Shown piece after piece: positions 45,105-52,354 of a stretch of 64,000 nt of DNA. The stretch comes from Planctomycetota bacterium. GTDB taxonomy: Bacteria; Planctomycetota; JAMOSO01. How positions within the stretch are numbered: position 1 is the first letter of the stretch; every line of letters begins with the position of its first letter. A program made the translations under genes and the position numbers. Location: positions 1 to 64,000 of the forward strand of contig JAMOSO010000011.1 in assembly GCA_027063065.1 (NCBI GenBank), in the 5' to 3' direction. The notes under the pieces are model-generated. The model made no database searches, was not told the DNA's origin, and worked only from the letters and a program-made list of their open reading frames with translations.

Positions 45105-46373
45105 ATGATTTTTAATTTAGTATATTTAATTTTTTTACTCATAAGCGCACCATACTTTATAATATCTATAATACGGCGTGATAAACATAGGATTGGCTTA
45201 TTACAAAAATTTAGTTTTGTATTGCCAACAGTAAAAACTGAAAATAATATTTGGATACATGCAGTATCAGTTGGAGAGGTATTATTATGTCGTCCATTAG
45301 TAGCAAAATTAAAAAAAACAAATCCTGATTTCAATATAGTAATTTCAGTAACAACAGCTACTGGATACCGTATGGCGCAAAAACATTTTACAGAACATAA
45401 TTTAATTTTTTACCCATTTGATTTTACATGGTCTGTAAAACGTATCTTAAAAAAAATAAATCCAAAAATAATTTTATTGGCAGAATTAGAACTATGGCCA
45501 AACTTTATAATGACTGCTAAAAAAATGAATATTCCCGTTGCCATTATCAATGGACGTTTAACTCATAGATCTTGCCTAGGCTTTAAACGAGCAATTAAAA
45601 TTTTAAAACCAATGTTTGACGGCGTTGATTATTTTTGGATGCAAACCAATTTATACGCAGATAGGTTAAGGCTTTTAGGCATAGATGATGCAAAAATAAA
45701 AAAACTTGGGTCTATGAAATATGACAATTTAGATTACACCCCTAAAAATGATAAAATTAAAAACATAACCTCTGCTCTAAATAATTATCCAAAACGTATT
45801 ATTTTAGTTGCTGGATCAACACATAGCCCAGAAGAGACATACTTATTAAACGCCTTAAAACCTTTAATTAAACAAAAAAAACTAACTCTAATTATAGCCC
45901 CTAGACATCCAGAACGTTATAACGAAGTTGAAAGCATGATTATAAATCAAAAAATCAATTGCATTCGTAAAACCCAGTTAGATAAAAATCAAAAATATAT
46001 AGAAAATTCTATTATATTATTAGATACGATAGGAGAATTATCACAAGTATATGGTTTATCTGATTCAGTTTATATTGGCGGAACTTTAATTGACCATGGT
46101 GGTCAAAATTTAATGGAACCAGCCGCTTTGGGCAAAGCCATTATATGTGGTCCATCAATATATAATTTTCAAGAAACATACAATTTACTTCAAAGAGCGG
46201 GTGCTATCATTAATGTAAAAGATGAACAAGAGTTAATATTAGAATGCCAACAAAATTTATTAAATCGAGACTTGCAATCAATTGGCAAACTTGGTGTAGA
46301 GGTTATGCGAGCTCAAGCTGGTTCTACACAAAAACATTGCGATGCTATTTTAAAGATATTACAAAATGCGTAA
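45105..46373 (+). CDS. waaA: 3-deoxy-D-manno-octulosonic acid transferase
   Basis: 422 residues (E. coli WaaA 425). Adds Kdo to lipid A precursor. N-terminal membrane anchor (VYLIFLLISAPYFIISII), then IWIHAVSVGEVLLCRPLV, VSVTTATGYRMA, FYPFDFTWSVKRILKKINP, ELELWPN, GRLTHRS, AGSTHSPEET and the nucleotide-sugar site GGTLIDHGGQNLMEPAALGK. Starts 1 nt after the recQ stop and overlaps the next gene by 8 nt. Good evidence for an LPS-bearing outer membrane. Confidence 0.96.
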   Translation: MIFNLVYLIFLLISAPYFIISIIRRDKHRIGLLQKFSFVLPTVKTENNIWIHAVSVGEVLLCRPLVAKLKKTNPDFNIVISVTTATGYRMAQKHFTEHNLIFYPFDFTWSVKRILKKINPKIILLAELELWPNFIMTAKKMNIPVAIINGRLTHRSCLGFKRAIKILKPMFDGVDYFWMQTNLYADRLRLLGIDDAKIKKLGSMKYDNLDYTPKNDKIKNITSALNNYPKRIILVAGSTHSPEETYLLNALKPLIKQKKLTLIIAPRHPERYNEVESMIINQKINCIRKTQLDKNQKYIENSIILLDTIGELSQVYGLSDSVYIGGTLIDHGGQNLMEPAALGKAIICGPSIYNFQETYNLLQRAGAIINVKDEQELILECQQNLLNRDLQSIGKLGVEVMRAQAGSTQKHCDAILKILQNA

Positions 46374-47361
46374 AACTAATATAAGAGTATTAAGTATTTT
46401 TATAATACATTTTTTAACAGGGGTAATTGGATATCATCTAATTGAAGGTTGGGATTTAATCCAATCTTTTTATATGACATCTATTACAATTTCTACAGTA
46501 GGTTATCAAGAGGCTTTGCCTTTAAGTCCAGCTGGTAAAATTTTTACATCAATTTATATAATCATTGGAATTGTTATTATGGCTGCCATTATTGCGGTGA
46601 TTACATCAGTAATTATCGAGGGAGTATTTCATAATAAAATCAGAAGGAGAAAAATGATTAAAGAAATAAAAAAATTACGCAACCATTATATTATTGTCGG
46701 TTCTGGGCGTGTGGGCTTAGAAGTAATCAAACAAATGAATGCTGCCAAACAGAAATTTGTGGTCATAGAAAAAGATGATCAAAAAATAGATAATTTAAAA
46801 GAACCTCATCATATCAAATTATACGTAATAGGTGATGCGACCGATGAGAAAGTGTTAATAGATGCAGGTATCGAAAATGCCTTGGGTATTATTTTAGCAA
46901 TTAGCAACGATGCAGAAAACTTATTTAGCATTGTAACAATCAGGGGCATATCCAAAGAAATTAAAATAATATCAAGAGCAACTTCGCAGAGTTCATGCAA
47001 AAAATTTATGCATGCAGGAGCAAACTCTGTTATCAATCCTGGCAAATTAACTGGCATCCGACTTTCTAATATGCTTTTAAAACCAAGCGTAGTAAACCTA
47101 ATGGATGGCATTACAGATATCAACAATGCTAATATGACTATTGAACAAGTTATCATACCTATGCAATCATCCCTTATCAACAAAACTATTATGGACGCGG
47201 CTATACCTAAAAAAACAGGATTTTTAATTTTAGCCATTACTAGCGCCAATGGAGCATTTTTATTTAATCCTAAACCAGATTTAATTTTAGAAGCTGGCGA
47301 TACATTGGTATTAGCTGGTGATCCTGCTAGATTAAGTCGCCTATATGAGCTAATAAGTTGA
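46366..47361 (+). CDS. Two-helix potassium channel-like protein with RCK domain
   Basis: 331 residues. Helix 1 is about 7-26, the pore loop 32-50, helix 2 about 57-84, then an RCK/TrkA-N Rossmann domain (IIVGSGRVGLEVI, 110-121; VIEKDD; GDATDEKVLIDAGI) and a C-terminal TrkA-C domain (about 245-331). The overall plan is that of MthK and other prokaryotic K+ channels gated by cytosolic ligands. The selectivity filter reads TVGYQ (44-48) where canonical channels have TVGYG. It overlaps waaA by 8 nt and waaF by 4 nt, so it is firmly inside an LPS-core operon, which is unusual. Confidence 0.9.
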   Translation: MRKTNIRVLSIFIIHFLTGVIGYHLIEGWDLIQSFYMTSITISTVGYQEALPLSPAGKIFTSIYIIIGIVIMAAIIAVITSVIIEGVFHNKIRRRKMIKEIKKLRNHYIIVGSGRVGLEVIKQMNAAKQKFVVIEKDDQKIDNLKEPHHIKLYVIGDATDEKVLIDAGIENALGIILAISNDAENLFSIVTIRGISKEIKIISRATSQSSCKKFMHAGANSVINPGKLTGIRLSNMLLKPSVVNLMDGITDINNANMTIEQVIIPMQSSLINKTIMDAAIPKKTGFLILAITSANGAFLFNPKPDLILEAGDTLVLAGDPARLSRLYELIS

Positions 47362-48398
47362 AAACTATAAATTATAAAAAATTAAATCGTATTGTTATTC
47401 GCGTTCCAAACTGGATTGGAGATTGTGTAATGGCCATTGGAGGCTTACGCGCTATACGCAACCTTTGTCCAAATGCCCATATTGCTATTGTCGGCAGACC
47501 ATGGGTAGCTGGCTTATTTGAACATCTTGACTGCATAGATGAGATTATCGCATTTGATAAAACCACAACCGATAAATTACCATTTGGATTTTTAAAATTT
47601 TGCAAAAAACTAAAAGCAAAACAATTTGATGCTGCCTTTTTATTTCAAAATGCCTTTGAAGCTGCACTAATGGTATCTTTGGCAGGCATTAAAATTAAAA
47701 TAGGCTATAATCGTGACTGTCGTGGTTTTATGTTAAGCCATCCAATATATGTTAATCGTCAAAAATTATTATCCAAACATGAAGTTTTTTATTATACAAA
47801 TATAATAAAACAAAGTTTTAAGCCAACAACAAGCATCGATAGCAATATAAGATTAATAAATACGGATAAACAAAATATTATTGAGCAAACATTTAAAAAA
47901 TTTAATATACCACAACACAAAAACATTATAGGCATATCCCCTGGCGCTGCATTTGGACCTGCTAAACGCTGGCCAACTAATAATTTTTCTGAACTAGCCA
48001 AGCGTTTGCAAACCGAGTTAAATGCCACAGTAATTATTACTGGCGCAAAGGCTGATCAAAAGCCTACAGAAAATATGCCTGGTATAAATTTATGTGCTAA
48101 AACAAGTTTAAGCGAAGCCATATATTTAACTGCGGGATGTGATATTTTTATCTCAAATGATTCAGGGCCAATGCATATTGCTGCCGCTTTAAAAATACCG
48201 CAAATTGCCATATTTGGCTCTACAGATTATATACGCACAGGACCGTTTTCTGACAAAGCCATTATATTAAGAGATGAAGAATTAGATTGTATTCCTTGTC
48301 GCAAAAGAACTTGCAAACTTGGAACCTATGAATGTCTTAGCAAAATAACTGTACAAAATGTATTTAATAATTGTGTAAAATTATTAAATAACAAATAA
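47358..48398 (+). CDS. waaF: ADP-heptose:LPS heptosyltransferase II
   Basis: 346-residue GT9 enzyme adding the second heptose to the LPS inner core. TTG start overlapping the channel gene stop by 4 nt. Signatures: RIVIRVPNWIGDCVMAIGGLRAIR, GISPGAAFGPAKRWP, CAKTSLSEAIYLTAGCDIFISNDSGPMHIAAAL and IAIFGSTDYIRTGPFS. The last part has a Cys cluster (CIPCRKRTCKLGTYECL), present in many WaaF. Its presence implies a heptose-containing core. Confidence 0.94.
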   Translation: MKTINYKKLNRIVIRVPNWIGDCVMAIGGLRAIRNLCPNAHIAIVGRPWVAGLFEHLDCIDEIIAFDKTTTDKLPFGFLKFCKKLKAKQFDAAFLFQNAFEAALMVSLAGIKIKIGYNRDCRGFMLSHPIYVNRQKLLSKHEVFYYTNIIKQSFKPTTSIDSNIRLINTDKQNIIEQTFKKFNIPQHKNIIGISPGAAFGPAKRWPTNNFSELAKRLQTELNATVIITGAKADQKPTENMPGINLCAKTSLSEAIYLTAGCDIFISNDSGPMHIAAALKIPQIAIFGSTDYIRTGPFSDKAIILRDEELDCIPCRKRTCKLGTYECLSKITVQNVFNNCVKLLNNK

Positions 48399-51637: not shown

Positions 51638-52354
51638 TTACTTGCCACCAGACCAAAAGGCCTTAACTTTTGGATCACTTGAACTATAACCATCAACCAT
51701 TACTTCATCGTATGTATGCAAAGCAACATGTCCATCTACAAATACCAAATTGCTACCATTTTTATGTCGTAACGATATATTATTAGTACCACGTGGTATT
51801 GGAAATCTAACCAAAAAATAACTTTGTAAAGTATTTTGCTTAGCGCTATCCGCCCACATTAAAAGTTGTGCAGGATTTTGTACTGAACTGCTCCTTGTGG
51901 GACCACCTCCTGATGCAGTACATAAATAATCATAATTATATCCATATGATATTTGCACTTTGGCTACAGGAACCCCACCTTCATAAACTCTTCTAGTTTC
52001 GGTATCTTCCTTTTTTTGCGAAGAACAATAAAAAACATTATAGATAGGCGGATTATATGATTTTTCAATACCGACATATTCTAATTCATTTTTTGTCCAA
52101 TACATATCTTCAATAAGATAACCTCTATAATCTAATGAATAATTAATATTAGCTAAACCAAGTTGTTTTAAATTATTAGAGCAAGATACTTGTTTGGCTT
52201 TGGATTTGGCCTCGGACAATGCCGGCAAAAGCATTGATGCTAGAATAGATATAATAGCTATCACTACTAATAATTCTATCAAGGTGAAGTATTTATTTAT
52301 ATTTTTAAATTTGTTTATTTTTAATGTTAAAGTATTTAAACATTTCATATACAA
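51638..52354 (-). CDS. Type II secretion-like pseudopilin (DUF1559 / H-X9-DG)
   Basis: 238 residues with a 25-residue leader and the prepilin methylation motif [24 protein letters not shown] after it. The mature protein has [24 protein letters not shown] and the C-terminal [15 protein letters not shown] (the H-x9-DG block). Proteins of this type are highly expanded in Lentisphaerota, Verrucomicrobiota and Planctomycetota, and are thought to be exported, surface or secretion-related fibres. Function of this one unknown. A 282-bp gap precedes it. The leading residues [20 protein letters not shown] may start at the second Met. Confidence 0.88.

Follow-up and report, generated by a model that had tools for sequence, protein, structure and literature searches.

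The window analysed in this study, a stretch of 64,000 nucleotides from a Planctomycetota genome, contains a gene (46366-47361, forward strand) that probably encodes a tetrameric, RCK-gated cation channel of the MthK architecture, most likely conducting K+, with an in-gene start for a separate RCK chain. As far as its sequence goes, the gene is a variant of the RCK-gated two-transmembrane (2TM) channels with a putative second start, a ribosome-binding site and start codon preceding the RCK domain, and its product looks like a ligand-gated channel of the K+ type. The selectivity filter lacks its second glycine, an observation of the original prediction that is right and, judged by the sequences of relatives, more general than first thought.

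Architecture of the channel

The open reading frame (ORF) encodes 331 amino acids and carries an Ion_trans_2 domain (residues 11-84), a TrkA_N domain (108-225) and a TrkA_C domain (260-330), all scoring above the Pfam cut-offs; ORF and Pfam together bear out the K+-channel-type pore with a TVGYQ filter that had been predicted at this position. These three domains in one chain with two transmembrane helices form the domain arrangement of MthK. The AlphaFold2 model places TM helix 1 at residues 2-27 (46369-46446) and TM helix 2 at residues 55-85 (46528-46620), with the filter T44-V-G-Y-Q-E49 between them (46495-46512); the RCK N-lobe (TrkA_N; 46687-47040), bearing GxGxxG and Glu135, and the RCK C-lobe (TrkA_C; 47143-47355) follow on the same forward strand.

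The solved sequences nearest to the window channel are those of GsuK, the dual-RCK channel of Geobacter sulfurreducens (PDB 4gx5), and MthK, an archaeal Ca2+-gated K+ channel (PDB 1lnq/6u68) with which it shares about 26% identity. GsuK is likewise RCK-gated but has two RCK domains in tandem, whereas Pfam detects one TrkA_N and one TrkA_C in the bacterial channel described here. MthK shares with it the 2TM, single-RCK chain, the nearest solved fold and a Tyr-acid pair behind the filter, which reads TVGYG-D in MthK and TVGYQ-E in the window channel. The best NCBIfam match is the E. coli Kch equivalog NF007828, at 105.4 bits, far below its curated cut-off of 425. Kch is also a single-RCK channel, but it has six transmembrane helices where the window channel has two, and what its internal start does is a matter of dispute. 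The filter of E. coli Kch is GYG.

A monomeric AlphaFold2 model, built from an alignment of 74 relatives (mean pLDDT 91.2, pTM 0.68), was compared with the PDB by VIA and Foldseek. Against the best MthK chains it aligned over 318 residues with a VIA Z of 24.6 and an rmsd of 10.4, a value to be expected over the whole chain if the domains are hinged. The rmsd was 2.2-3.2 over about 220 residues against RCK-only MthK chains, and the RCK part alone matched MthK with a Z of 23.1 (221 residues, rmsd 2.3). The filter block (residues 41-50) has a pLDDT of 70, among the lowest values of the model, and as this is a monomer the filter geometry is not readable from it.

The Ca2+ ligands of MthK, D184, E210 and E212 (D184N and E212Q are among the Foldseek results), are replaced in the window channel by A178, R204 and T206, and the equivalent positions are mostly V/A, R/K and G/I/S among the best 80 of 579 relatives. 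With these ligands absent, the gating ring presumably senses no Ca2+. The RCK domain carries the nucleotide-binding (KTN) signature G112-x-G114-x-x-G117 with the acidic E135 at the end of strand 2, and the same best 80 of 579 have Glu (68) or Asp (11) at position 135. By analogy with the KTN/RCK family, a nucleotide is the likeliest ligand; GsuK is described as nucleotide-activated (PMC3510474).

Other channel genes of the same genome and phylum differ from the window gene in various ways. A paralogue in the same genome (L032:239-1567; G000:C5:617-1525, reverse strand) encodes a 2TM channel with a TVGYGE filter and a TrkA_N domain, followed by a receiver domain (PF00072, E 2e-25), and no TrkA_C was found in it. 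The genome also contains what appears by eye to be a Kv-type channel gene (L033:1036-1833; G000:C2:18456-18674, forward strand) whose pore helix is interrupted by a single in-frame TAG immediately ahead of the TVGYGD filter, representing a pseudogene, an assembly error or read-through. Several relatives in the phylum (L009, L010, L012 and L208, also L007, L189 and L190) have RCK domains with a filter that is absent or degenerate, the corresponding segments reading TVDRPF, TVNEPYE or TVNEPF (no K+ filter) and TLGLES or TFGLES (degenerate); Pfam was run on L009 and L010 only.

A candidate internal translation start

In MthK, an internal start at Met107 is reported to supply free RCK subunits (PMC9440719), and cells that express the wild-type channel have yielded a purified free RCK fragment, M107-A336 (PMC2573919). 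The GsuK paper states that most prokaryotic RCK channels carry one RCK domain and need an internal start to form the ring (PMC3510474), and a review names an internal methionine as a possible source of soluble RCK (PMC4565861). Another report doubts the octameric ring and describes E. coli Kch as unaffected by removal of its putative internal start (PMC2920069). We found no family-wide comparative test of internal RCK starts in the open-licence literature.

The window gene bears the sequence signature of such a start. Between TM helix 2 and the RCK domain, positions 46644-46656 read as a Shine-Dalgarno motif, AAGGAG (46644-46649), four A and an in-frame ATG (Met97), from which a predicted soluble RCK subunit of 235 amino acids, consisting of TrkA_N and TrkA_C only, would be translated (46654-47361, forward strand). 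Within 44 window genes, a hand-chosen subset of the 52 ORFs, a 6-nt Shine-Dalgarno match precedes 2 of 401 internal in-frame ATGs, and only three of the 44 gene starts match as well as the internal site does. The channel's own start has no Shine-Dalgarno match of 4 nt or more.

The site recurs in relatives. We searched 80 genes, namely the window gene and 79 of the named relatives (drawn from the best 80 of 579, the fragment L089 being dropped), for a Shine-Dalgarno match of at least 5 nt before ATG, GTG or TTG within residues 88-107, and found one in 56, against 8.2 on average and at most 16 in 200 synonymous within-gene shuffles. Ten other 20-residue stretches of the same 80 genes gave 2-11 matches. 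Column 97 holds a start codon in 72 of the 80 genes (ATG 31, GTG 21, TTG 20): where it encodes Leu the codon is TTG in 20 of 23 cases, compared with 11.4% elsewhere, and where it encodes Val it is GTG in 21 of 22, compared with 30.7%. Just upstream, Gly93 is GGG in 46/46 genes (22% elsewhere) and Arg94 is AGG or AGA in 64/65 (33.5% elsewhere). A nearly separate set from the phylum, which has two genes in common with the first and includes the paralogue L032, has the internal start in 29 of 62 genes, against a shuffled mean of 8.1 and a maximum of 15 (100 shuffles). The 5-nt match is missing from 24/80 and 33/62 genes, the receiver-fused paralogue among them.

These patterns bear on the possibility that the motif is a by-product of an Arg/Lys-rich linker and codon bias. 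The linker is indeed rich in these residues, and AGR and AAR codons resemble a Shine-Dalgarno motif. The within-gene shuffles, however, keep both the amino acids and the codon usage and still give 8.2 matches against the 56 found, the choice of TTG and GTG at column 97 argues in the same direction, and the tandem-RCK channels of the phylum, GsuK-type genes examined as a control, have an internal Shine-Dalgarno start at either linker in 0 of 16 cases (four from one genus), unlike the window gene. An ATG does occur in the first linker of 11 of these 16, without a Shine-Dalgarno motif, and the absence fits the expectation that tandem-RCK channels should need no extra RCK chain. We therefore consider a by-product highly improbable. 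On the preferred reading of a genuine second start, the gene would make a pore subunit plus a soluble RCK subunit as a predicted second product, and four tethered and four free RCK subunits would close an eight-domain gating ring, in likeness to MthK.

The fifth position of the selectivity filter

Two papers present the second filter glycine as a feature of all K+ channels, absolutely conserved or obligatory (PMC9273215, PMC12332018); in the latter it is the motif TxVG(Y/F/L)G that is called obligatory. The window filter TVGYQ departs from the canonical TxG[YF]G with both glycines, and the prediction that its fifth residue is Gln48 in place of Gly is confirmed by the codon at 46507-46509. It had also treated this residue as a peculiarity, which does not agree with what is found in relatives. 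These were collected with a pore-helix pattern that did not use the filter, giving 579 confirmed matches, the best 80 of which, the named relatives, show 33-39% identity over the best segment and belong to Geobacterales, Nitrospirota, Gemmatimonadota, Bacteroidota, Bacillota, Chloroflexota, Planctomycetota and others. A 115-aa fragment among them, L089, is included in the filter-residue counts and left out of the tree, co-variation and internal-start sets.

Position 5 is not Gly in 60 of these best 80 of 579; the residues are Gly 20, Lys 18, Arg 16, Gln 9 and Ser 9, with two each of Glu, Thr, Ala and Met. The rest of the filter is kept in the same best 80 of 579: positions 1-4 follow T/S/A-V/I-G-Y/F, with Gly at position 3 in 80/80 and Phe (46) or Tyr (34) at position 4, and position 6 is Glu in 80/80. 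A wider phylum set (n=62, the window gene and L032 included), which overlaps the named set in two genes (the window's and L212/L070), has Gly at position 5 in 31 genes and another residue in 31 (Glu 7, Gln 6, Arg 5, Ser 5, others 8). Position 6 in the phylum set is Glu in 36, Asp in 15 and other residues in 11, so that the fixed Glu is a feature of the nearer relatives and does not extend to the family as a whole; position 3 is other than Gly in 4/62, genes without a filter in which the alignment is rough. Among 29 best-scoring Ion_trans_2 loci inspected by eye, 23 of the 23 outside the window channel's family have G-D at positions 5-6, the remaining six belonging to the family.

The best quick tree, for which the filter columns were left out, requires at least 13 changes between Gly and non-Gly forms, six of these changes being forced by starred branches, and the two forms nevertheless cluster on it (mean of 18.1 after shuffling, 1/500 as low). 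Twelve pairs of genes, all non-Gly, have dN/dS values of 0.018-0.129, although rows are shared between these pairs and several are close to saturation at synonymous sites, and 79 of the 80 named genes are full-length; low dN/dS and full-length genes indicate that the non-Gly members are not decaying. The substitutes are also restricted: V, I, T or P account for 2 of the 60 non-Gly residues against a 27% background (kinship ignored), and V, I, L, F, W, Y, C and P for none of the 60. Nearly all are non-beta-branched, as expected if the residue keeps a left-handed turn. Residue 48 has raw associations with other columns, but with six independent pairs none of those listed was significant. The internal start is commoner in non-Gly (46/60) than in Gly genes (10/20), kinship again ignored.

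Whether such a pore conducts K+ has to be weighed against two other readings. The channel might conduct cations non-selectively, the outer filter widening without the second glycine as in NaK, NirBac and NaKTs. A study of protozoan GYX proteins suggests from mutant data that these are non-selective or non-functional, citing mutants whose K+ selectivity and function were abolished once the second glycine was lost (PMC3283738); NirBac and NaKTs show that in bacterial channels an altered filter can go with non-selective conduction, and GsuK, with Phe replacing Tyr, already has a PNa/PK of about 0.2. The comparisons are imperfect. NirBac and NaKTs are, like the window channel, bacterial members of K+-channel families with non-canonical filters, but theirs diverge much more, while the window filter departs only at position 5 (and from D to E); the protozoan proteins share the natural loss of the second glycine but are treated in that study as possible paralogues beside canonical genes, whereas the window family is broadly bacterial with Glu after the variable residue in nearer relatives. 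Moreover, the MthK filter is held by a Tyr-acid pair, Y51-D64 (PMC10274084), and the equivalents Y36 and E49 are each present in 80/80 of the best 80 of 579. Retention of this pair and of positions 1-4 in all or nearly all named relatives suggests that K+ geometry is still selected, and Gly and non-Gly forms interchange between relatives. Non-selective conduction is in our view unlikely, though far from negligible.

A closed pore, as had also been suggested, would leave a non-conducting remnant whose RCK part works alone as a soluble nucleotide sensor. L009 and L010 (by Pfam) and L012 (by eye) have lost the filter and kept the RCK domains, and the internal start matches Shine-Dalgarno better than the gene's own. 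Against this, T44, G46, Y47 and E49 are present and almost invariant in the best 80 of 579, and the purifying selection seen in relatives, in all 12 non-Gly pairs, makes a dead pore very unlikely. In the K+-conducting channel that we favour, residue 48 would take the left-handed backbone turn made by Gly elsewhere, and sites S2-S4 would stay intact, with the change limited to the outer mouth (S0/S1). Either the window family is exceptional in its K+ selectivity, or the printed statements on the glycine go too far. No characterised member of the family was found, and a search of the open-licence literature for filter strings matched two unrelated papers only.

Gene neighbourhood

The channel gene lies between waaA (Kdo transferase; 45105-46373, forward strand) and waaF (heptosyltransferase II, TTG start; 47358-48398, forward strand), neighbours outside the channel system. 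WaaA is recognised by Pfam (PF04413), and its best matches are the NCBIfam waaA equivalogs, yet below their curated cut-offs; WaaF scores above the cut-off of TIGR02195. The ORF coordinates agree with the predicted overlaps of 8 nt with waaA and 4 nt (TTGA) with waaF. Before residue 37 the channel ORF offers no further in-frame ATG, GTG or TTG, so the overlap with waaA is forced, no alternative start lying ahead of the first TM helix.

From this arrangement an LPS core operon had been proposed, with a channel linking K+ or membrane potential to LPS assembly. Coupling to the Kdo and heptose steps is what the overlaps in the window genome would favour, and two weak echoes were found in relatives: in L070 (genome G070), the only one of the best 80 of 579 loci with waaA near the channel, that gene is on the opposite strand, 2.4 kb off, with a histidine kinase and a response regulator between (by eye), and in L206 (G383) a WaaF-like gene lies 353 bp upstream of a GYGD-type channel on the same strand. 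The packed run, however, reads sbcD-sbcC-recQ-waaA-channel-waaF (sbcD, sbcC and recQ by Pfam) and so also holds DNA-repair genes, which means that taken whole it is no LPS core operon. Overlap is also usual in the window: of 41 neighbour pairs on one strand, 16 overlap, and 24 either overlap or are at most 10 nt apart. Channel relatives also occur in Bacillota (L109, L113, L131), most of which lack LPS.

Neither the 80 named loci nor the 72 genomes or the 60 regions show conserved linkage, and the order waaA-channel-waaF has no other case in the named loci or regions. waaF is near the channel in 0 of the best 80 of 579 loci, whose flanks reach up to 10 kb, many ended by contig ends. Among 60 regions fetched from 57 genomes of the phylum, many likewise ended by contig ends, waaA is near the channel in one (G070, the genome of L070) and a WaaF-like gene in two, L206 and L183, the latter at 6.7 kb. 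Using 149 waaA matches listed, 72 phylum genomes have both channel and waaA, on the same contig in 19, with a smallest gap of 236 kb, and on different contigs only in the other 53; 47 of 119 channel-bearing genomes, the window's own included, have no waaA among the matches listed, from which the second waaA copy of G070, near the channel, is also absent. The window genome (G000; 2.13 Mb, 71 contigs) is alone of its class in the comparison, which reaches same-phylum kin at closest. We accordingly rejected a tie to LPS as the main reading, and a channel dedicated to LPS assembly is most improbable; the open-licence literature searched yielded nothing joining waaF with a potassium channel. The channel probably lies between two LPS genes only through tight gene packing, which would be specific to this lineage.

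A search for a gene partner kept across the family turned up none apart from clusters present chiefly in Geobacterales (IspD-, SelA- and TIM-barrel-like, by eye) and one response-regulator cluster. Of the best 80 of 579 loci, 14 have a member of that response-regulator-like cluster close to the channel, and in L070 (9917-13301) genes for a sensor histidine kinase and a response regulator follow the channel gene closely on the same strand (by eye). In L206 (7987-11600; G383), GmhB-like (by eye), WaaF-like and GYGD 2TM-RCK channel genes stand in a row on one strand. Elsewhere in the window, 51638-52354 (reverse strand) encodes a DUF1559-type pseudopilin-like protein (PF07596), of a kind common in Planctomycetota and their kin.

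Discussion

Taken broadly, the data raise the possibility that a widespread family conducts K+ without the second filter glycine, makes a soluble RCK subunit, and exemplifies an octameric ring general to single-RCK channels. We hold this wider view tentatively, at somewhat under even chances; the phylum set, with less Glu, fewer non-Gly filters and fewer internal starts, makes it slightly less likely. Cultured Geobacterales with both signatures include Citrifermentans bremense R1 (L069) and Geomonas (L064).

If the broad reading is true, the second filter glycine would be dispensable and often replaced by Lys, Arg, Gln or Ser, selection on synonymous codons would maintain an in-gene ribosome-binding site in many phyla, and the octameric gating ring, disputed in print, would be the physiological state of single-RCK channels generally. 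A recurrent in-gene start that is absent in 16 of 16 tandem-RCK genes provides comparative evidence in the debate on the eight-domain ring, and a family in which the second glycine is missing from 60 of the best 80 of 579 relatives, and from 31 of 62 genes in the phylum set, offers a natural experiment on the function of that glycine.
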